Origin: a virus | Strand: one strand, 5' to 3' | DNA length: 22,961 nt | Virus record (IMG/VR): IMGVR_UViG_3300021137_000107 | Location: 1-22,961 of that record | Notes under the pieces: model-generated | What the model was told of the DNA's origin: nothing | The model's input: the letters and a program-made list of their open reading frames with translations, nothing else | Databases searched by the model: none | Shown here: positions 11,906 through 22,889 of the stretch, piece after piece | How positions within the stretch are numbered: the first letter of the stretch is position 1 | Layout of the letters: every line of letters begins with the position of its first letter | Made by a program: the position numbers and the translations under genes

Positions 11906-12487
11906 GCTCAACCTCTCTAAAGACTTGATCTATTGCCAGCAGCCAGTCCGTCACCTGCCGAGGCTGGTCGAGGAACTCCTCGTGCGAGCCTCCGAGGGCT
12001 TTGCGGAAGCGGTACTCACGAGTAAAGTCGGACAGTTCAGCGTCCACCTCAGTCGTCTTGCCCTCGAGCGCCGCCTTTAGTTTGCCGAGGCGACGGTAGG
12101 GGCTTTTGGGTCGGTGTCAGGCTCCGTGTTGATGCCTGCGCCGTTGAACTCATTACCACATCCCTCAGCGAGTGCGTCGAACGTGGCCTTAGGCAGGTCG
12201 AGCACCGACTCAAGGGTTGGCAGGTCGCCCAGCGTCCACTGCTTGACGAGCCCGACGATGAGCTCAGCCTGGTAAGCGTCCATCGCCTTCACCTGGTCAT
12301 CCGACAGCGTGCTGTACGCTCCCCACGTCTCTGGCTTCGTGTCATCGAATCCGAGGGAGGCGAGGTGTGCAGCAACACTGGCGGCTGACAGGTACGCCCG
12401 AGAGATGGAGCGAGTTGTGCGCTCGCTGATTTCGTCTCGGGAGGCGATGACTGCTGACTGGTTGTTGGGTAGTTGGATGATTGGCAT
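11898..12487 (-). CDS. tail assembly chaperone G-T, -1 frameshift product
   Basis: The product is read from the ATG at 12487 to the AAA codon at 12106-12104, slips back one base, and continues to a TAG at 11898-11900, giving 128 + 68 = 196 residues. The added part starts SPYRRLGKLKAALEG and continues with a clean helical, charged sequence (SDFTREYRFRKALGG, QVTDWLLAIDQVFREVERG) and no stop, right up to the next gene. The organisation equals lambda G/G-T and its many siphovirus counterparts, where the long form binds the tape measure and recruits tail tube subunits. The shift site is a canonical heptamer in the required frame and the tape measure gene is close downstream, so confidence is high. 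Confidence 0.88.
12077..12487 (-). CDS. tail assembly chaperone G, unshifted product
   Basis: A 136-residue protein starting MPIIQLPNNQSAVIASRDEI, with an AAGGGG six bases before the ATG. It is acidic and helical (ISRAYLSAASVAAHLASLGF, QAELIVGLVKQW) and ends in a Pro/Thr/Ala-rich tail. It directly follows the major tail protein gene and carries the slippery heptamer 8 codons before its stop. These features identify it as the abundant short tail assembly chaperone, a cytoplasmic protein absent from the mature virion. ALPT-rich end residues are replaced by the T domain in the frameshifted form. Confidence 0.87.
   Translation of the reverse strand: MPIIQLPNNQSAVIASRDEISERTTRSISRAYLSAASVAAHLASLGFDDTKPETWGAYSTLSDDQVKAMDAYQAELIVGLVKQWTLGDLPTLESVLDLPKATFDALAEGCGNEFNGAGINTEPDTDPKAPTVASAN
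12104..12110 (-). promoter_or_regulatory. -1 ribosomal frameshift site C CCA AAA
   Basis: On the minus strand the seven bases CCCAAAA lie in the frame C CCA AAA of the chaperone gene, fitting X XXY YYZ. The -1 frame is open for 68 codons. A possible stimulatory stem, CGCCT (12092-12088) with AGGCG (12076-12072), begins 11 bases downstream; the stem is short and less certain than the heptamer. Confidence 0.85.
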
Positions 12488-12506
12488 TGTTCCCCTTCTT
12501 TCTTGC

Positions 12507-13511
12507 TTAGTAGGCGGCGGACTGTCCGTTGATGGTGACTACCTTGATGGGCGAGTAGCCGGTGGCAGCGTCGGTGGCGTTGGCGTTGGCGGTGAACTCC
12601 ACCTCAATCTCGGTGAACTCTTTGCCTCGGGTGCGCTTGACGCTGTGGAACTGCGCAGTCGTCATGGTCAGGGCCACTGAGTGCTGGGTGCCACCAGAAG
12701 CGTCGTTGGGGTCGGTCAGCGTGATGACGACGGCCTGAGGCGAACGGGTGAGACCGTAGGCGCTCGAGCCGGTGGTGAACACGTCAGCGTTCGTAGCCAC
12801 GACGAACGTGAACTTGCCGGTGACTTCGATGGGGCCAGCGAACAGGTCGTAAGGGGCCTGCGTGCCGAGGGTGTAGATCGCCTGCGTCTTGCGGTTGATG
12901 GTCAGGTCGCCGGTGGTGACGTTGGTGTACGTCGTGCCACCGATGGAGACCGTCGTGTCCCATGCCGGAATCAGGTGCTCTGAGCTCAGGCTCTGCGAGG
13001 CGAAGACGGTGGGCGCTGAGGTGTAAGAGGTGTAGGGGTTCGCTAGGTACTTGATGGTGGCCTCGGCTGCGGCTTCTGCTCCGAAGGTTAGGGCGAGCGA
13101 GTCAGCCTGCGATGCGGTGGTGGTGAAGTAGTTCGCACCGTCGAAGTCGAGGATGGAGTAGGTGGGGGGCTGCGAGCCGGTTGAGGCTGAGTTGAGCACC
13201 TTGATGGTGTGGGTGTAGGCGGTCGAGCCCGTCACCGTGTCAGCGCCACCGAGGATGGACTGAGCGAGCACGGGGAAGGTGTCGGCGAAGAGGTAGGACT
13301 TGAACTCGAACTCATCGTGACGGACACCCTGCACCTGGTCGTAGACCGTCGTGGGCGAGCCTCGGAAGGCTTCATCACGGAGGAACATCTGCTGAGGAGT
13401 GATCTGCGGAGTCGAGACCGGAATCCACGAAGGCGTGCCAGTCGTAGGCAGGGTGCCTGACGTGACTTCCTTGATGATTCCGAGATAACTATTGGCTGAA
13501 AGAAAGGGCAT
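12507..13511 (-). CDS. major tail tube protein
   Basis: A 334-residue beta-rich protein with no signal or membrane segments. It opens with MPFLSANSYLGIIKEVTSGT, a pattern typical of siphovirus tail tube proteins in actinobacterial phages. It continues with tube-fold strands (DEFEFKSYLFADTFPVLAQ, YTHTIKVLN, LTINRKTQAIYTLGTQAPYD, GKFTFVVATN) and a strand-rich C-terminus. It stacks as rings around the tape measure to form the tail tube. The position just before the chaperone pair is diagnostic. AAGGA lies about seven bases before the ATG. The length is at the larger end for the family, suggesting an added surface domain, although none stands out. Confidence 0.88.
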   Translation of the reverse strand: MPFLSANSYLGIIKEVTSGTLPTTGTPSWIPVSTPQITPQQMFLRDEAFRGSPTTVYDQVQGVRHDEFEFKSYLFADTFPVLAQSILGGADTVTGSTAYTHTIKVLNSASTGSQPPTYSILDFDGANYFTTTASQADSLALTFGAEAAAEATIKYLANPYTSYTSAPTVFASQSLSSEHLIPAWDTTVSIGGTTYTNVTTGDLTINRKTQAIYTLGTQAPYDLFAGPIEVTGKFTFVVATNADVFTTGSSAYGLTRSPQAVVITLTDPNDASGGTQHSVALTMTTAQFHSVKRTRGKEFTEIEVEFTANANATDAATGYSPIKVVTINGQSAAY

Positions 13512-13520
13512 CGCTAGTCC

Positions 13521-13736
13521 TTAGTTTGTAGGGGTAGAGGTTGGGTCGGCTTCGGGTGTTGCTGGCGCTACAGGGGCTTCTGGGGCGCTCTGCGTCGCTT
13601 CTGCGGCAGTCCAGCGTCCGTCGCTGGGGTCTGCGTCGAGGTCGTAGGTCTGACCAGGCTCGGCGACGAGCACCGCACCATTGACCACGATGTTCGGATA
13701 GGTGCGCTCTTCGCTGTCAGTGAACGTGAATTGCAT
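13521..13736 (-). CDS. small protein with Pro/Ala-rich tail
   Basis: A 71-residue protein. The ATG at 13736 is preceded by AAGGAG at four bases and lies eight bases after the previous stop; longer frames reaching upstream lie inside the tail terminator gene. The N-terminal 40 residues look folded (MQFTFTDSEERTYPNIVVNG, then EPGQTYDLDADPSDGRW). The rest is an acidic Ala/Pro/Thr-rich disordered tail. Small proteins of this kind, with a short beta N-terminus and an acidic tail, are common next to major capsid or tail tube genes. The function is unknown; an accessory or decoration role is possible. Confidence 0.72.
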   Translation of the reverse strand: MQFTFTDSEERTYPNIVVNGAVLVAEPGQTYDLDADPSDGRWTAAEATQSAPEAPVAPATPEADPTSTPTN

Positions 13737-13744
13737 GATGCTCC

Positions 13745-14272
13745 TTAGGAGATGTAAGAGTTGGAGTTGGTGATTTCGATGACCGTCACTCGCACAGTTG
13801 AAACTACCTGAGTGACGCTCGCTGAGCCGTTGATTTGCCGAGGGTAGTACGAGACGACATCGATGTCCTCGGCCTCGGGCGTGGTGCCTTCGCCCCACTG
13901 GAAGATGGGCCCCGAGCCTCCGCAGTTCTTCGATGCTCGGATGGCGTTGGTGAATGAGTCGAGGAAGGCTTCGGAGTCTGCGCCAGCGTCCTCGGTCTTT
14001 CGCTTTGAGCTGCGGAAGATGCAGGTGAAGACGACGGTGTAAGCGATCTTTTTGCCCCCACCCGTTGCGCCGGTCAGTTCGATGCGCTTCTCTCGTTGCG
14101 CTTCGATGTAGGGGTAGACGATGCAGCCGGTGGCGTGCCCTGGGTCTTCGTTGTCGTAGAACTCGCCCTCGGGGGTGAACTTCGCAGGGAAGGTCTTGAC
14201 GCTGGCGAGGTAGGTGATGCCGGCGTTGTTCAGGTAGTTCACGAATTGCGTGCGTACCGTCTCACGGCTCAC
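13745..14272 (-). CDS. probable tail terminator (gpU-like)
   Basis: A 175-residue protein with a GTG start at 14272 inside the stop of the adaptor gene (GTGA). The pattern is an N-terminal helix (ETVRTQFVNYLNNAGI), a beta core with a long strand pair (CIVYPYIEAQREKRIEL, KKIAYTVVFTCIFRSS), a central helix with many charges (DSEAFLDSFTNAIRAS) and a final strand (STVRVTVIEIT). This order matches tail terminator or minor tail U-like proteins, which cap the tube and join it to the neck. Position between adaptor and tail tube supports it. A head-closure (stopper) role is the main alternative, since no other candidate for either lies in this interval. Confidence 0.65.
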   Translation of the reverse strand: MSRETVRTQFVNYLNNAGITYLASVKTFPAKFTPEGEFYDNEDPGHATGCIVYPYIEAQREKRIELTGATGGGKKIAYTVVFTCIFRSSKRKTEDAGADSEAFLDSFTNAIRASKNCGGSGPIFQWGEGTTPEAEDIDVVSYYPRQINGSASVTQVVSTVRVTVIEITNSNSYIS

Positions 14273-15183
14273 TGACGGCCTCCGATGACCTTGAAGGGCT
14301 CGAGGAGGTCGTAGCCCTGCATCTCATCTTCCATGCTCGTCTGTGAACGTCCAGAGACGGCCTGAGGCTCGCCAATCTCGTTGATGACCAGCCCACCCTG
14401 TCCTCGCTCTTTGACCATCGCCACGACGAAGTGGATGACGGCCTGCTTGACGGCGGCAGGCATGGTGGAGGCGTTCACGCCGATTCCGTGAGCGTAGAGG
14501 AGACCAGAGGCGAGGGTTATAACGTTCCCCGTCACAGAGGAGACCTTGCACGTCTCGTCCTGCATCCCGTCCCAGATGGTGAAGTTCATGCCAGCGAAGA
14601 AGCCGGTCGTGTCGGTCAGGGTGATTGACGTGGCCCCGACTGCTGCCGAGGCGGTGAGGAATGAGTTGCCCCAGCCGTTGATGTAGGAATACTGGCACCA
14701 CATGTTCGTCTGGTAGCCCCAGCGTCCTCCAGCGATGCCGAGGTTGCCGAAGTAGAGCCCGAGCGTCGAGGGTGCAGTGAGGATGAACTGGTCACGATCG
14801 ATGGCGACGTTGCTCGAGGAGATGGTGATTTCTTGCAGGCCAGAGCCAGGGCCCCAGCCGACCTGCACGTCAGTCACGGCGAGGATGGGCGAGAATGACG
14901 GAGTGAAGGTGATGTTGCCGTCACGAGAGGGGCGGTACCAGCCGTTCTCCGTGTTCACGGTGGCGTTGAGCGTACCCATCTTGCCGTAGCAGAAGATGTC
15001 AGCCTTGCTTGACGCTCGCTTGATGAGCTCAGAGAGCGCACGGTCCTGAGCGACGATGCTGGCGTTCTCGATGAGGTTCGTGAAGTCGATGGCGGCGGCG
15101 GTAGGGGAGAACTTGACCTCGTTGAGCGAGACGTAGGGCTCGATAATGCCTTCGGTCTGATAGAACGGGGCGATGACGGTCAT
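14269..15183 (-). CDS. head-tail adaptor with inserted beta module
   Basis: A 304-residue protein starting MTVIAPFYQTEGIIEPYVSL. The ATG at 15183 overlaps the upstream stop as ATGA. Helical parts (LIENASIVAQDRALSELIKR near residues 34-53, and AAVKQAVIHFVVAMVKERG near the end) fit the helical bundle of HK97 gp6-like adaptors that dock under the portal. Between them is a beta-rich insertion (ASAAVGATSITLTDTTGFF, then VSSVTGNVITLASGLLYAHG), a module recurrent in phage adhesion and structural proteins. Canonical adaptors are about 100-150 residues, so this one is roughly twice the usual size. The position after the capsid gene supports the call; the insertion may be exposed at the neck. Confidence 0.72.
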   Translation of the reverse strand: MTVIAPFYQTEGIIEPYVSLNEVKFSPTAAAIDFTNLIENASIVAQDRALSELIKRASSKADIFCYGKMGTLNATVNTENGWYRPSRDGNITFTPSFSPILAVTDVQVGWGPGSGLQEITISSSNVAIDRDQFILTAPSTLGLYFGNLGIAGGRWGYQTNMWCQYSYINGWGNSFLTASAAVGATSITLTDTTGFFAGMNFTIWDGMQDETCKVSSVTGNVITLASGLLYAHGIGVNASTMPAAVKQAVIHFVVAMVKERGQGGLVINEIGEPQAVSGRSQTSMEDEMQGYDLLEPFKVIGGRQ

Positions 15184-15437
15184 TGTTCTTCTTCCAGGTT
15201 GGTCCCGTCGCACTTGCCGCAGTGGTCACGGTAGAGAGAATTGAATCCGCAGTCGAGGCACTTGAAGCCCCGAGCGTTGCGGAAGTTGGTGCCAGCGACA
15301 GCGAAGTCACCGGACTTGATGAGAGCCCTAGCGGTCTGGCCCTCGATGTGGAAGGTGCCGTCTTTCTGACGGGGAATGACCTTGCCATCGTTCACTTGTA
15401 GTTCTTTGAGGCCTGCGTCTGAGCCTACGAGTTTCAT
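15180..15437 (-). CDS. small zinc-ribbon protein after the capsid gene
   Basis: An 85-residue protein. The first 50 residues are a small beta domain (KVIPRQKDGTFHIEG, then ALIKSGDFAVAGTNF). The end is a zinc ribbon with two Cys pairs, CLDC and CGKC, about ten residues apart, followed by an acidic tail. AAGGGAG lies five bases before the ATG and is contained in a possible inhibitory hairpin with the upstream capsid 3' end. The stop overlaps the adaptor start. I do not recognise a family name; small proteins in this slot include capsid decoration proteins and assembly factors. A zinc-stabilised capsid-associated protein is the most economical guess. Confidence 0.75.
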   Translation of the reverse strand: MKLVGSDAGLKELQVNDGKVIPRQKDGTFHIEGQTARALIKSGDFAVAGTNFRNARGFKCLDCGFNSLYRDHCGKCDGTNLEEEQ

Positions 15438-15439
15438 TA

Positions 15440-15469
15440 CTGCTCCCTTCGAGACTGGGAGGGGAGCAG
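15440..15469 (-). promoter_or_regulatory. alternative hairpin covering the ribosome site of the zinc-ribbon gene
   Basis: On the RNA, CTGCTCCC (15469-15462) can pair perfectly with GGGAGCAG (15447-15440) around a 14-base loop. The second strand contains most of the AAGGGAG ribosome site of the next gene. The first six bases of the first strand are also part of the 14-base-pair hairpin, so the two structures exclude one another. Confidence 0.5.
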
Positions 15470-15501
15470 GGCTGGTGGAAGGGGATACACCAGCCCTGCT
15501 C
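15464..15501 (-). terminator. 14-base-pair perfect hairpin between capsid and zinc-ribbon genes
   Basis: The arms GAGCAGGGCTGGTG and CACCAGCCCTGCTC pair perfectly around a 10-base loop. It is GC-rich but followed by CCCTCCC rather than a run of U, so full intrinsic termination is doubtful. It could pause polymerase, attenuate transcription or protect the capsid mRNA. It lies downstream of the most highly needed gene of the phage, where such structures are expected. Confidence 0.75.
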
Positions 15502-15511
15502 GACCCTCGGT

Positions 15512-15531
15512 GCTAGGCAGTGGTGCCTAGC
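15512..15531 (-). terminator. perfect hairpin directly after the capsid gene
   Basis: An 8-base perfect inverted repeat with a 4-base loop (GCTAGGCA, CCAC, TGCCTAGC on the transcribed strand) lies eight bases after the major capsid stop. There is no U-tract, so it may be a weak terminator or an RNA 3'-end protector. Confidence 0.6.
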
Positions 15532-15539
15532 GGATTTGA

Positions 15540-17201
15540 CTAGGCGGTGAGGCCCGTCACGATGCCCGACCAGGCTGGCGCACGGAAGGCGAGCGAGCCG
15601 TAGGTGTACGAGCTGATGTCGTACGAGAAGCCAATCTGAGGCCACTCGATGATCATGCTGTCCACGACGTTGTGCGCTTCGACGGTCTGGCTCACGCCGG
15701 AGTCGGGGAAGGGCAACTGCTTCTGGTGGACGATTGCGACACCGGCAGGCATGAAGCGGTGCGTGACGAGTTCGACCATCGTTCCGGTCGCTTCGTTCTG
15801 CAGAGCGTTCACAAGCGAGCCGAGCACCACGCCGTTGTCGCCGGTCTGGTAGTTCAGACGGTAGGCGGCGTTGGACGAGTTGGTCTGAATCGCAGCAGCC
15901 AGGGCACGGCGGATTGCAGCCGTAGTGATGACAACTTCAGGGTCAGCCATCGTGCTGTTGAACAGCGAGATGAATGCGTCCTGGAGGAAGCCACCGGCCT
16001 CGTTCTGAGCCGACACTGAGCCGTTGAACTGCTTCTGGTAGCCACCCGACTGAGCGAACGTGCTGATGAAGCCGTCGTAGCCAGTCGCCGAGTTCGATCC
16101 TGCGGCGCTCGAGTTGTAAGACCCGTCCGTCGAAGGGTAGGTGCCGGTGATGGAGGAGTAGCCGAGGCCAGCAACAGCAGACGACAACAGAGGCGTGGTG
16201 GTTTTGTAGGTGGTGCCGGAGACGACGACGTAGATGTTCACTGCGACTGCGCTGTAGGGCACGGTGCCGGAGATGGCAACCTTGACACCCTGACCAGCCG
16301 TAGCGTTGGTCACCGTACCAGCAGACACGCCAGCAGTCTCACCGTAAGCCGACGAGAGCGTGACGTAGACAGCCGACGACGAGGTGGCAGGGAGACCCGT
16401 ACCAGTGGTGTCGTTCGAGGCGGTGAAGGTCAAGCCCGAGGTGCTCAAGGCAGTCGAGACAGCGTTCAGCATGTTGCGCTCTTCGCCCAAGAAATGCGCC
16501 CAAATTAAGGCAGTGTGGGACAGTTGGCGCAGGTCGGAAAATCCGGCACCGGCGAACTCGGCCTGGAGGCTCACGGAGTCCGAGACACCCTGCTCGACGA
16601 ACGACTTGACAATCTTGTCAGCAGCGTAGGTGATCTTCGTAGGACGGTTCAGCGACACGCCACCGAATGACGTGGAAGCCGAGGTCGAGTTGAAGAACGT
16701 CGAGAGGTTAGCGACACCACCGACACCGGCGTTCGAGACACCAGTGATGCGACGGAACTCGAGAGCCTGTCCCTGAGCCTTGATGCGTGCGGTGGAATTG
16801 CGGAGATACAATTCCTTCGGAATCAGCAATGAGAGGACCGGGTCCAAATTGTAGGGGACGAGACCCGAGACACCCGAGATGGTCGAGTTCAGTGGGCTGG
16901 TGAGGGTGAGGTCCTTCTGCAGGTCGGCGAGGCCGGCGAGCGAGGACTCGACAGCAGCGAGCTGGTCGCCCGAGACTGCCTTAGTGATTTCCGTCTTCAG
17001 TTCCTCAATCTTCGAGGCGGCAGAGACGGACTTGGTGATGCCGACAGTCGGGGTGAACGACAACTCGCCTCGGCGAGCGGAGTTCAGCGTCTGGGCTTGG
17101 ACGGTGCTAAGGGCTGACTTGTAAGCCTCAAAGCGCTTGACCTGCTCATCGGCTGGCAGGCCGTGAAACATCTGGTCAAGGGAAGGAGCGGCGATGGTCA
17201 T
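15540..17201 (-). CDS. major capsid protein, HK97 fold
   Basis: A 553-residue protein. Residues 1-100 are helical and charged (ASKIEELKTEITKAV, LAGLADLQKDL), resembling a scaffold-like delta region that a prohead protease could remove. The HK97-fold core starts near residue 115 (LVPYNLDPVLSLLIPKELYL, then IKAQGQALEFRRI) and resumes after 375 to a typical end (PAGVAIVHQKQLPFPDSG, VVDSMIIEWPQIGFSYDISS, LAFRAP). Residues about 255-370 are a beta-rich insertion (VKVAISGTVPYSAVAVNIYV) resembling a fibronectin/Ig-type domain. It assembles the icosahedral shell. The gene follows the protease and precedes adaptor genes. Only a weak AGAAGA-type ribosome site precedes the ATG, which is surprising for an abundant protein. 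Confidence 0.88.
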   Translation of the reverse strand: MTIAAPSLDQMFHGLPADEQVKRFEAYKSALSTVQAQTLNSARRGELSFTPTVGITKSVSAASKIEELKTEITKAVSGDQLAAVESSLAGLADLQKDLTLTSPLNSTISGVSGLVPYNLDPVLSLLIPKELYLRNSTARIKAQGQALEFRRITGVSNAGVGGVANLSTFFNSTSASTSFGGVSLNRPTKITYAADKIVKSFVEQGVSDSVSLQAEFAGAGFSDLRQLSHTALIWAHFLGEERNMLNAVSTALSTSGLTFTASNDTTGTGLPATSSSAVYVTLSSAYGETAGVSAGTVTNATAGQGVKVAISGTVPYSAVAVNIYVVVSGTTYKTTTPLLSSAVAGLGYSSITGTYPSTDGSYNSSAAGSNSATGYDGFISTFAQSGGYQKQFNGSVSAQNEAGGFLQDAFISLFNSTMADPEVVITTAAIRRALAAAIQTNSSNAAYRLNYQTGDNGVVLGSLVNALQNEATGTMVELVTHRFMPAGVAIVHQKQLPFPDSGVSQTVEAHNVVDSMIIEWPQIGFSYDISSYTYGSLAFRAPAWSGIVTGLTA

Positions 17202-17219
17202 CGCTGTATCTTCTTTCTG

Positions 17220-18845
17220 TTAGTTGGACTCAAGAGCACGGGCGCTCTCGAGGTAGGCGTTGCGGAGTGCAGGGTCATTCACTTGCGAGGCGATGTTGCG
17301 GAGACGAATGGCCTCCACCTCGTTTGCGAGGACTGCTGCTGACTTGCTGGTCTGTTCACGGGTTGCACGGAGTGCAGGCCCGCCAGGTGCAGCCATTGAC
17401 TTCACTTCGTCGAGCGCAGCCTTCAGGAGAGCAATCTCCTCTTTCGCTTCGCTCAATTCAGCCTTCGCCGTCATGACTTCTTCAAGGCCCAGCGCCTTGA
17501 CGATCTCGTTGCGCAGTTCCGTCTTCACTTCGTCAGTGGCGGCGGTTGCGGTTGCGGTCTTGATGAGGTCGGCGCTTACGCCGAGTGCTACATAAGCCAT
17601 TGAATCATCCTTGTCGTCGGTGTCCCATCCGGTGAATGGGGCAGGGGTTTCGTTCTCTGAGGCTTCGTCAGTCCACCAGCAGAGGAAGTATTCGAGGGTG
17701 CAGAGCAACTCACGAACGTCGCAGATTTCGTTCTCGTCGCCTGCGAGCATCTCGTCGAGCTCAGCCTTGATGCAGTTGATGAGTCCGAGGCGGATGGCGC
17801 TCAGTTCGGCTGCGTCGTGCTTCATGTCGTCAGCCTTCGCTAGGTCAGCGTCAGCGCCCTTCCAGTTGTCGGGGACTAGGTCGGTGCGTCCCAGAGCCTC
17901 GGCTCGGGTCTTGATGTGCGCCTTCGCTGCGGCTGGGTCCTTTGCACGTCCGATGGACTGGATGGCGTTGCGCAGGTCCTTGATGGTCTTGATGGGGAAG
18001 CCACCACCCTCCATAGCCTGACCGCTTGCCTCCATGCTGGCACGCTCAGCGTCGGTGTAGTCCTTCTTCGCCAGTTCGGGCTCAGCGTCCTTCATGTCAC
18101 GGTTGTCGAGGCCCTGAGGACGGCCCTGAACGTTCTGCTCCATGTTCTCGAGGCGGTCGTCGGGCTGGTGGCCCGTGCCTGCGCAGACTTCGCAGTCCGT
18201 CTCTTGGGTGTTGCCCATGACGTTGGACTTCTTGCCGGTGCCTGCGCATGACTGGCAGGGCTGAGGAGTGTCGTGGTTGAGAACGTCGATAGTGACACCA
18301 GGCTCTTCGGTCATTATGGCTTCGGCGTTCATCGCAGGGGACTCGGCCTTTTTGATTTCGGACACGGCGGCCCCTTTCACTAGTTCGCCCTTGATGGACT
18401 TGGCGATTTCAATTACTGCGGAGGGGTTAGCCGGACGGTCTACGAGTGAGACCTCGACGATTGTGCCGTCGATGATGCGTCCACCTGGTGCGGCGTTGTC
18501 CTTGACAACTCGAGCGCCCTTGATGCCGACCGAGAAGCCGGTGTAGACACCTTCAGAGACCATCTTGGCGGCCTGCTCGTCCACTACCTTTGCAGTGACC
18601 ACGAAGCCTGAGCCGGACTGCTCCATCTCGGTAGCCTTGCCGACTGCCTTGCTCTGGTGCATCTCTCGGATGTTGCCGATTTCCATCCACGCTGGCATGG
18701 CGCTCTTGAGCCATGCAGGGTCGCAGATTTGCTGGTCGAGGTCGAGGGTGTCGTCAGTGGCGATGCCCTTGACGTACATGAAGCCATCCTCGCCACGCTT
18801 GGCAGTCAGGCCACCGAAGTAGACGCTCTTGATGTTGTCAGTCAT
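17220..18845 (-). CDS. prohead protease fused to scaffold-like region
   Basis: A 541-residue protein. I chose the ATG at 18845, preceded by AAAGGA, because upstream residues overlap the portal gene. Residues 1-155 are an HK97-type (S78) prohead protease: GIATDDTLDLD, His63 in REMHQSKAVGKA, Ser105 in YTGFSVGIKG and the typical VEVSLVDRPANP. Residues 197-225 contain two CxxCxGxG motifs (CQSCAGTG and CEVCAGTG) like the DnaJ zinc-binding domain. Residues 286-326 hold a conserved helical pattern (TIKDLRNAIQSIGRAKDP). The last 85 residues are helical and charged (AELSEAKEEIALLKAALDEV), as in scaffolds. It matures the capsid and may also act as its scaffold, since no separate scaffold gene is present. 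Confidence 0.87.
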   Translation of the reverse strand: MTDNIKSVYFGGLTAKRGEDGFMYVKGIATDDTLDLDQQICDPAWLKSAMPAWMEIGNIREMHQSKAVGKATEMEQSGSGFVVTAKVVDEQAAKMVSEGVYTGFSVGIKGARVVKDNAAPGGRIIDGTIVEVSLVDRPANPSAVIEIAKSIKGELVKGAAVSEIKKAESPAMNAEAIMTEEPGVTIDVLNHDTPQPCQSCAGTGKKSNVMGNTQETDCEVCAGTGHQPDDRLENMEQNVQGRPQGLDNRDMKDAEPELAKKDYTDAERASMEASGQAMEGGGFPIKTIKDLRNAIQSIGRAKDPAAAKAHIKTRAEALGRTDLVPDNWKGADADLAKADDMKHDAAELSAIRLGLINCIKAELDEMLAGDENEICDVRELLCTLEYFLCWWTDEASENETPAPFTGWDTDDKDDSMAYVALGVSADLIKTATATAATDEVKTELRNEIVKALGLEEVMTAKAELSEAKEEIALLKAALDEVKSMAAPGGPALRATREQTSKSAAVLANEVEAIRLRNIASQVNDPALRNAYLESARALESN

Positions 18846-18853
18846 AGTTTCCT

Positions 18854-21470: not shown

Positions 21471-22889
21471 TTATCGTGGGTAGACCTGTACGAGGTCGTA
21501 GTCGTTATTGTGCGCCCCACAGGAGGGGCAGGAACTAGCGTCTCTCGCCACTGGCATCCCACACATGGAGCAGGGAGGAGCCAGTTCGAGGAAGAATCTG
21601 TCGGCTGACGTGCCACCAGCCAGCCCGAGTTCGGTGAGGCCGTGCACGAGAGCGTCGAGGCGGTCAGGTGAGAGGCCGGAATCGGGAAGCCATGTGGTCA
21701 TCTGGTCTTCGAGCTCGTCGAAGGCTCCGACGTGGCTGATGCGCCCCTGCTCGTAGAGTGCGGCGACTGGCTCGGCTCGGAGGCGCTTGCCCTGCTTTGC
21801 CGTGATGCCCTTGAACGGTGCAGTCGGGAGCACGGAGCGAATGGTCATCTCCACCATGTCGCCGCCCTGGTTCTTTTCAGCGACGATGCGGTCAGCGTTG
21901 AAGTCGTGAAAGGCTTGGACTGCCCTGTGAGCCCACCCAGAGGGCGTGTCACGGCACGAACGGTCGCTAAGGACGTATCCCCTACCGTCTGCGCCTTTGC
22001 CGACGACGAGGATGCCGGTTTCGTCTGAGTGCTCGCCGGAGGTCACGGCTGGGTCGATGGCGACCACGACTCGTACCAGTTCCGGTACCACTTGGAGCCG
22101 GTGGTCTTCAATCATGCCGAGCGTCCAGAGTGCGCCAGGTGTGTCCGTGAGCACTTCGCCGTAGAGCTCTTGGCGACCGAGACGTGTGCCGTCATAGCGT
22201 GAGCGCAGTTCAGCGAGGGCGGCTGGTGAGAGGTTGTCGGCGTTGTCGAACGTTGATCCACGAGTGACGACGACTGAGCCGTCCGTGCGTCCCATGAACT
22301 CTCGGATGAGTTTGGTCGGGCGAGGGGTCGTGGTGATGATGGTCTGAGGGTTGCCGATACGAAGCGCCGGAGCGAGGCCTGCGGTCCATGTCTCCTCGTA
22401 GCTCCATGCGGCGAACTCGTCGAGCCATGCGTAGGACAAATTTAATCCTCTGGCCCGATTGGGAACGTCTGCCGAGACCATGTGAATCTTCGAGCCGTTG
22501 GTCAGGGTGATTTGCCCGTTGCTTCGGTTGTATTGCTCAAGGGTTCCGGCTGGGAGGCTCTTGATGAGACCGGAGGGGCCCTCGACACAGGTGCGTCGAA
22601 CGTCGGTGAAGGTCGGGGCGACGACTGCACACTCAATACCTGGCTCGCTCAGGGCTTTCTCCAGTAGCCAGCCTGCGCCGGTGAAGGTCTTACCCCAGCC
22701 TCGGCCTGAGAGAATGAGCCAGATGCGCCAGTTGCCCTCGGGAGGGAGTTGCTGAGGTCTCGCTGAGCTGCGGTATCGGGTGTGAACGGCCTCGGCTTTG
22801 GCTTGCTCGGCTTTGACTGCCCGAGCCTTGAGTTCTAGAGCCTCAAGCCGTTTCAGTTCCGCTAGTCGTTGCTGGAGAATCGTTGTCAT
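21471..22889 (-). CDS. terminase large subunit with C-terminal zinc ribbon
   Basis: A 472-residue DNA packaging motor. Residues 62-68 are the Walker A loop (GRGWGKT), 153-158 the Walker B (YAWLDE), and 186-191 the coupling motif (TTTPRP). The nuclease domain shows Asp279 (VVVAIDPAVTSG), Glu338 (RIVAEKNQGGD) and Asp412 (DRLDALVHG). The protein then continues with a Cys4 zinc ribbon: Cys440, Cys443, Cys454, Cys457, before a short aromatic tail. This ribbon is not a standard part of the terminase. The N-terminal 40 residues are a charged helix. GGAGAG lies about five bases before the ATG, and the start region overlaps the end of an upstream gene by 47 bases. Confidence 0.93.
   Translation of the reverse strand: MTTILQQRLAELKRLEALELKARAVKAEQAKAEAVHTRYRSSARPQQLPPEGNWRIWLILSGRGWGKTFTGAGWLLEKALSEPGIECAVVAPTFTDVRRTCVEGPSGLIKSLPAGTLEQYNRSNGQITLTNGSKIHMVSADVPNRARGLNLSYAWLDEFAAWSYEETWTAGLAPALRIGNPQTIITTTPRPTKLIREFMGRTDGSVVVTRGSTFDNADNLSPAALAELRSRYDGTRLGRQELYGEVLTDTPGALWTLGMIEDHRLQVVPELVRVVVAIDPAVTSGEHSDETGILVVGKGADGRGYVLSDRSCRDTPSGWAHRAVQAFHDFNADRIVAEKNQGGDMVEMTIRSVLPTAPFKGITAKQGKRLRAEPVAALYEQGRISHVGAFDELEDQMTTWLPDSGLSPDRLDALVHGLTELGLAGGTSADRFFLELAPPCSMCGMPVARDASSCPSCGAHNNDYDLVQVYPR

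Follow-up and report, generated by a model that had tools for sequence, protein, structure and literature searches.

The stretch of DNA analysed here (the window) comprises 22,961 bases, a virus record from an uncultured lake-virus lineage; this fragment carries the head and tail cluster of a tailed phage. Its genes encode a terminase, a portal protein with a Mu-F-like end, a protease-like protein and a capsid-family protein (PHROG 13692), beyond which lie a zinc ribbon, several small genes, a tail tube and a tape measure. The capsid-family gene (15540..17201, minus strand) matched PHROG 13692 with an E value of 1e-60; this family carries no function label in PHROGs, and by tblastn the protein shares 24% identity with a protein of Alicyclobacillus phage MMB025 that is annotated as its major head protein. 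On the basis of synteny and the weak MMB025 match, we take this gene to be the major capsid gene. Its TAG stop codon occupies positions 15542-15540 of the minus strand, and the next gene on that strand (15180..15437) encodes a zinc-ribbon protein of 85 amino acids. A scan of positions 12000-18000 found no sigma-70-like promoter. Elsewhere in the cluster, the protease-like protein (17220-18851, minus strand) contains two CxxCxGxG motifs (CQSCAGTG ... CEVCAGTG) that resemble DnaJ zinc-binding repeats, and the terminase large subunit (21471-22889, minus strand) ends in a zinc-ribbon-like tail, CSMCGMPVARDASSCPSCG.

Between the capsid and zinc-ribbon genes, the minus strand encodes two perfect hairpins, of 8 bp and 14 bp, as an earlier note on this DNA had described. 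Hairpin 1 (15512..15531) begins 8 nt past the capsid stop and consists of the 8-bp stem GCTAGGCA/TGCCTAGC, in which 15531-15524 pair with 15519-15512, and the loop CCAC. The trinucleotide ACC separates it from hairpin 2, which as a whole spans 15459..15508. The inner helix of hairpin 2 is a perfect 14-bp stem formed by the 5′ arm GAGCAGGGCTGGTG (15488..15501) and the 3′ arm CACCAGCCCTGCTC (15464..15477), with 15501-15488 paired to 15477-15464. It is lengthened across a 2-nt bulge, TC (15502..15503), on the 5′ side by a 5-bp outer helix that the earlier note overlooked, in which GAGGG (15504..15508) pairs with CCCTC (15459-15463). The C-rich apical loop TATCCCCTTC (15478..15487) contains CCCTTC, which is complementary to GAAGGG in the Shine-Dalgarno (SD) region of the zinc-ribbon gene. 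That region, read from the sequence as GAAGGGAG (15443..15450, minus strand), follows hairpin 2 after an 8-nt linker and is itself followed by CAGTA and the zinc-ribbon ATG. The folding energy of the element region was -67.6 kcal/mol, compared with -44.5 +/- 3.8 kcal/mol for shuffles (z -6.1), and no other 70-nt stretch of the window is as stable as the element. It also holds the only perfect minus-strand hairpin of at least 10 bp in the window, of which shuffles contained 0.45 on average.

IMG/VR capsid searches, reaching down to about 45% identity, yielded 149 relatives with usable sequence past the capsid stop. A hairpin lies 3′ of the capsid gene throughout these relatives, and the zinc-ribbon gene comes next in almost all of them. 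Within the broad clade of the window the order is fixed: hairpin 1, usually starting GCTAG, is followed by a short spacer, the outer helix, the 2-nt bulge (mostly TT, otherwise TA or TC) and an inner helix GAG...CTC that carries a loop with CCC(C). The basal GAG and CTC are invariant, and the C residues and one T of the loop are nearly so. Among 28 family members, pairing in hairpin 2 was kept in 97.6% of cells, as against 50-56% in slid-alignment controls, and both-sided changes occurred at 12 of the 16 pairs, a level reached by none of 500 shuffles. The outer helix covaries as well (GAGGG/CCCTC, GCAGG/CCTGC, GGCGG/CCGCC, GTGGG/CCCAC and CAAGG/CCTTG), and hairpin 1 is kept in relatives with altered stems (GCTAA/TTAGC, GCTCACCG/CGGTGAGC and GCCAACTG/CAGTTGGC). 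When hairpin 2 was registered by hand, we counted 515 Watson-Crick pairs, 40 G-U, 6 others and 0 A-C; the presence of G-U and absence of A-C indicate that the molecule under selection is the gene-strand transcript rather than a DNA palindrome. Intergenic divergence ranged from 0.00-0.23, compared with 0.07-0.55 at fourfold codon sites, and was lower in every compared pair (0.02 versus 0.22 and 0.05 versus 0.30 in two close pairs); overall, the divergence of intergenic bases was lower than that of fourfold sites by a factor of roughly 2-10. Run on the whole intergenic region, RNAalifold was limited by the varying lengths of the loop and of hairpin 1 and returned no more than the inner 9 pairs of hairpin 2. 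The two-hairpin element is a conserved, strand-specific, capsid-linked RNA structure.

Several relatives depart from this plan. Hairpin 1 of L008, L016, L030, L039, L042 and L075 bears a conserved extra arm, GACAGGC-UGNNC-GCCG, atop a varying stem, and its sequence conservation suggests that the arm may be a recognised motif. A tiny aromatic-rich open reading frame (ORF), such as MTYYIIETYPPLFFEVSQ, which shares an ATGA overlap with the start that follows, lies between the element and the zinc-ribbon gene in L024, L025, L064 and L290, and longer ORFs are present in L086, L221 and L230. A distant sub-clade (L238, L247, L248, L251, L255 and L256) has a different, larger structure at this site, in which a GCGGUUGUCUCC stretch is conserved.

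A covariance model of hairpin 2 (R1) scored 64.5 bits on the minus strand of the window and 28.6 bits on the plus strand, and also recovered the capsid-linked copies in relatives. It had no good match in 669 kb of other viral contigs, a control set drawn from the viral contigs among the matches listed for a looser pattern. In two exact-pattern scans of IMG/VR, copies lay behind the capsid gene or before the zinc-ribbon gene on contigs that include these genes, the exceptions being L322 and the trio L296, L316 and L317. The L322 match does not fold as the element and was rejected as chance. The trio represents an unrelated phage with a real copy of hairpin 2 (49 bits where scored, E 4e-9), located at L296:1316-1366 on the plus strand, with the same bulge and the loop UAUCCCCUUC, and identically in L316 and L317 (L317:12601-12651, minus strand). 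This copy directly precedes a terminase-like gene and neighbours a divergent gene, and no capsid homologue was found nearby. Eighteen motif-pattern matches in cellular genomes were also rejected, as none folds into the element and their number is about that estimated for chance. A nucleotide search of the phage collection found no match, a capsid search across 84,980 genomes found no relative, and our literature search found no described capsid-terminator RNA of such a kind. Mu-gpT-DE, a motif in Rfam from Mu-like phages, is likewise a conserved RNA structure that lies 3′ of the major head gene; the window, however, matched none of the 4227 Rfam families at gathering thresholds, and low-threshold matches fell far below the gathering scores.

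We put at about even the chance that the element is a cis-acting RNA that steps expression down after the capsid gene, as a leaky U-less terminator, a 3′-end protector or both, with SD masking in second place. Hairpin 1 and the long hairpin 2 would fold as soon as they are transcribed and would stop or pause part of the RNA polymerases, as a leaky, U-less, tandem-hairpin terminator; in addition or instead, they may form a stable 3′ end that shields the capsid message from 3′ exonucleases. Read-through RNA would then carry the zinc-ribbon gene and those following it, with translation starting at their own SD. If cleavage or another event made the 5′ arm unavailable, the SD just behind hairpin 2 could pair with the 3′ arm, which would lower downstream translation further; as a second layer, such masking is weakly supported. 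The covariation of hairpin 2, the G-U to A-C asymmetry and the low intergenic divergence are consistent with this proposal, as are the capsid-linked position and the lack of a sigma-70-like promoter in the region scanned. Partial termination or 3′-end protection, and the resulting expression ratio, are what we infer from these observations. Intercistronic hairpins such as the malE-malF REP and that of Rhodobacter puf stabilise the upstream mRNA and, like the element, follow a highly expressed gene within an operon; they are not tied to a capsid gene, however, and stabilisation by the element is only proposed.

The best clue to function comes from distant members of the family, which carry terminator-like hairpins with U-rich tails at the same site. 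These include two cultured phages, Thermoanaerobacterium phage THSA-485A (AAAAGGAG..CTCCTTTTTGATTTG) and Alicyclobacillus phage MMB025 (GGGC..GCCCTATTTGTTTTG), as well as contigs L219, L241, L264, L236, L223 and L242. Distant relatives, L264, L236 and L292 among them, have a U-tract directly behind the stem, whereas C-rich sequence follows the stem in the window's clade. There, the C-rich 3′ side of the outer helix takes the place of the U-rich tail, which it has presumably replaced. In the window, CCCTCCCAGT stands after hairpin 2 in place of a U-tract, in agreement with the earlier note. The element shows the GC-rich stem-loop of a canonical intrinsic terminator, but a consensus terminator scan called none at the site; the structural part of a U-less I-shaped terminator, a strong hairpin with no U trail, is present. 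From the missing U-tract, the earlier note had concluded that simple termination does not explain the hairpins. Such an exclusion is unsafe, because U-less I-shaped hairpins reduced downstream expression in vivo in Mycobacterium (PMC5335608) and the distant relatives have U-rich tails. The I-shaped terminators of high-GC bacteria resemble the element as strong GC-rich hairpins without a U-tract inside an operon, with a partial effect reported (PMC5335608), and the same likeness extends to the U-less terminators of the actinophage phiC31 early region (Ingham et al. 1995, as cited in PMC8355165). Tandem hairpins have also been proposed as terminators (PMC8355165).

Precedent for the position comes from T7, whose only terminator for its own polymerase, Tphi, lies immediately after capsid gene 10 and is leaky (PMC5592923). 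The element likewise directly follows the major capsid gene; downstream genes would be reached by read-through, and a high capsid to downstream ratio would result. The site is where that ratio would be set, as the earlier note had suggested. By contrast, Tphi acts on T7 RNA polymerase, whereas the element comprises two hairpins, is without a U-tract in the window's clade and is only proposed to terminate. In E. coli, ribosomes repress a terminator that lies near a stop codon, and its activity returns as the distance grows (PMC4824070); the start of hairpin 2, 31-61 nt past the capsid stop among the members listed, is in line with this effect. It is the U-rich hairpins of distant members, the T7 precedent, the U-less mycobacterial hairpins and the stop-to-hairpin distance that lead us to favour a post-capsid reduction in expression.

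Some observations sit less well with the proposed post-capsid step-down. The sequence after the stem is C-rich in the window's clade, and the mycobacterial polymerase is reported to require a U-tract in vitro (cited within PMC5335608). Sequence is conserved beyond what a plain terminator would require in the 2-nt bulge, the GAG/CTC stem base, the near-invariant C-rich loop and the GACAGGC arm of some hairpin 1 variants. The conserved bulge, stem base and loop, together with the single syntenic site, set the element apart from I-shaped terminators. To our knowledge, U-less I-shaped terminators have not been described as sequence-conserved families. Finally, the unrelated phage has hairpin 2 before its terminase-like gene with no capsid homologue ahead of it.

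An RNA that binds a factor is still conceivable, given the terminase-linked copy, the conserved bulge and loop of hairpin 2 and the extra arm of hairpin 1. In the broadest form of this idea, the element would define a new phage RNA family, tied to one capsid lineage plus the terminase-like gene of an unrelated phage, whose bulge, base and loop are read by a polymerase-associated or ribosome-associated factor controlling the late operon; we regard this as unlikely. A protein-binding or polymerase-binding RNA, with hairpins that a phage or host factor recognises by sequence as well as by shape, seems to us unlikely in a similar way; it could serve, for example, in processive antitermination, in processing of the RNase III type or as a translational operator. 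The bulge, GAG/CTC base and C-rich loop do persist amid freely varying stems, the GACAGGC-UGNNC-GCCG arm is conserved in hairpin 1 variants, and hairpin 2 occurs alone upstream of the terminase-like gene. However, Rfam yielded no match, there is no known partner, and the hairpins resembling terminators that distant relatives carry at this site suggest a simpler role.

The earlier note had proposed a switch, in which the 3′ arm of hairpin 2 has two possible partners, the 5′ arm (leaving the SD free) and the SD (hiding it), and the choice between them would set downstream translation. As the main function this now appears rather improbable. The alternative pairing itself was confirmed: CTGCTCCC (15462..15469, minus strand) pairs perfectly over 8 bp with GGGAGCAG (15440..15447, minus strand) in the window, where the arm-SD pairing can also be written CUGCUCCC/GGGAGCAG, and the shorter CTCCC/GGGAG pairing is present too. 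Because the outer helix extends hairpin 2, the alternative must break that helix as well. Both states are possible energetically, but the forced alternative (-65.6 kcal/mol) is 5.5 kcal/mol worse than the best fold (-71.1 kcal/mol), and hairpin 2 is transcribed first. The idea that the SD becomes covered once the large stem is disturbed held up in silico: after removal of the 5′ arm, most SD bases of the window were >95% paired, and across 42 relatives the median probability of the SD being unpaired fell from 0.52 to 0.25 (0.34 with shuffled arms). A family-wide cut at the loop similarly lowered mean SD accessibility from 0.52 to 0.28 (0.35 with shuffled arms). The proposed ribosome trigger fared worse, since capsid ribosomes stop 31 nt before hairpin 2 and are therefore poor candidates.

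Whereas hairpin 2 covaries strongly, the 8-bp alternative is confined to the window's closest relatives; other relatives have arm-SD pairings of 4-8 bp, mostly through near-invariant bases, and in most of them these are 4-6 bp formed by the invariant CUC and the SD. Separate lineages do show different pairings, CACCCUU/AAGGGUG (L242) and GCUCCC/GGGAGC (L278), and own arm-SD pairs were slightly more stable than swapped ones (-10.4 versus -9.8 kcal/mol, p 0.011, by a permutation test that ignores relatedness). On the present data the switch may operate, yet it is not why the hairpins are conserved; it would be at most a secondary layer.

A pseudoknot, in which the C-rich apical loop of an undisturbed hairpin 2 pairs with the SD and so blocks the ribosome site, strikes us as quite improbable. 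The loop and SD of the window could pair as CCCUUC/GAAGGG, and members with unusual SDs reach up to 8-9 bp (GUUUCCCUU/AAGGGAAAU in L086, GUUCCCCU/AGGGGAAU in L290 and AUUCCCCU/AGGGGAAU in L084). The loops beat shuffled loops (z -4.6), and the loop is conserved while the stems change. Yet pairing of the SD with its own loop was no better than with the loops of other members (p 0.15), and a linker of 7-10 nt would need to span about 19 bp of stem. Loop-SD covariation, convincing by eye, was rejected because swapping partners gave p 0.28 and p 0.15. A DNA-level palindrome serving as a recombination or packaging site, suggested by the near-perfect inverted repeat, was rejected as far-fetched because of the 40 G-U versus 0 A-C pairs on the gene strand, alongside the far lower R1 score of the other strand.

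Phages need hundreds of capsid copies and few of the proteins encoded by neighbouring genes, often from one transcript. The element, well defined and supported by covariation, sits at the point where the capsid to downstream ratio would be determined in this lineage of uncultured lake viruses, and distant cultured relatives carry terminator-like hairpins at the same spot. It is also relevant to the question of whether hairpins without a U-tract can end transcription in high-GC hosts.
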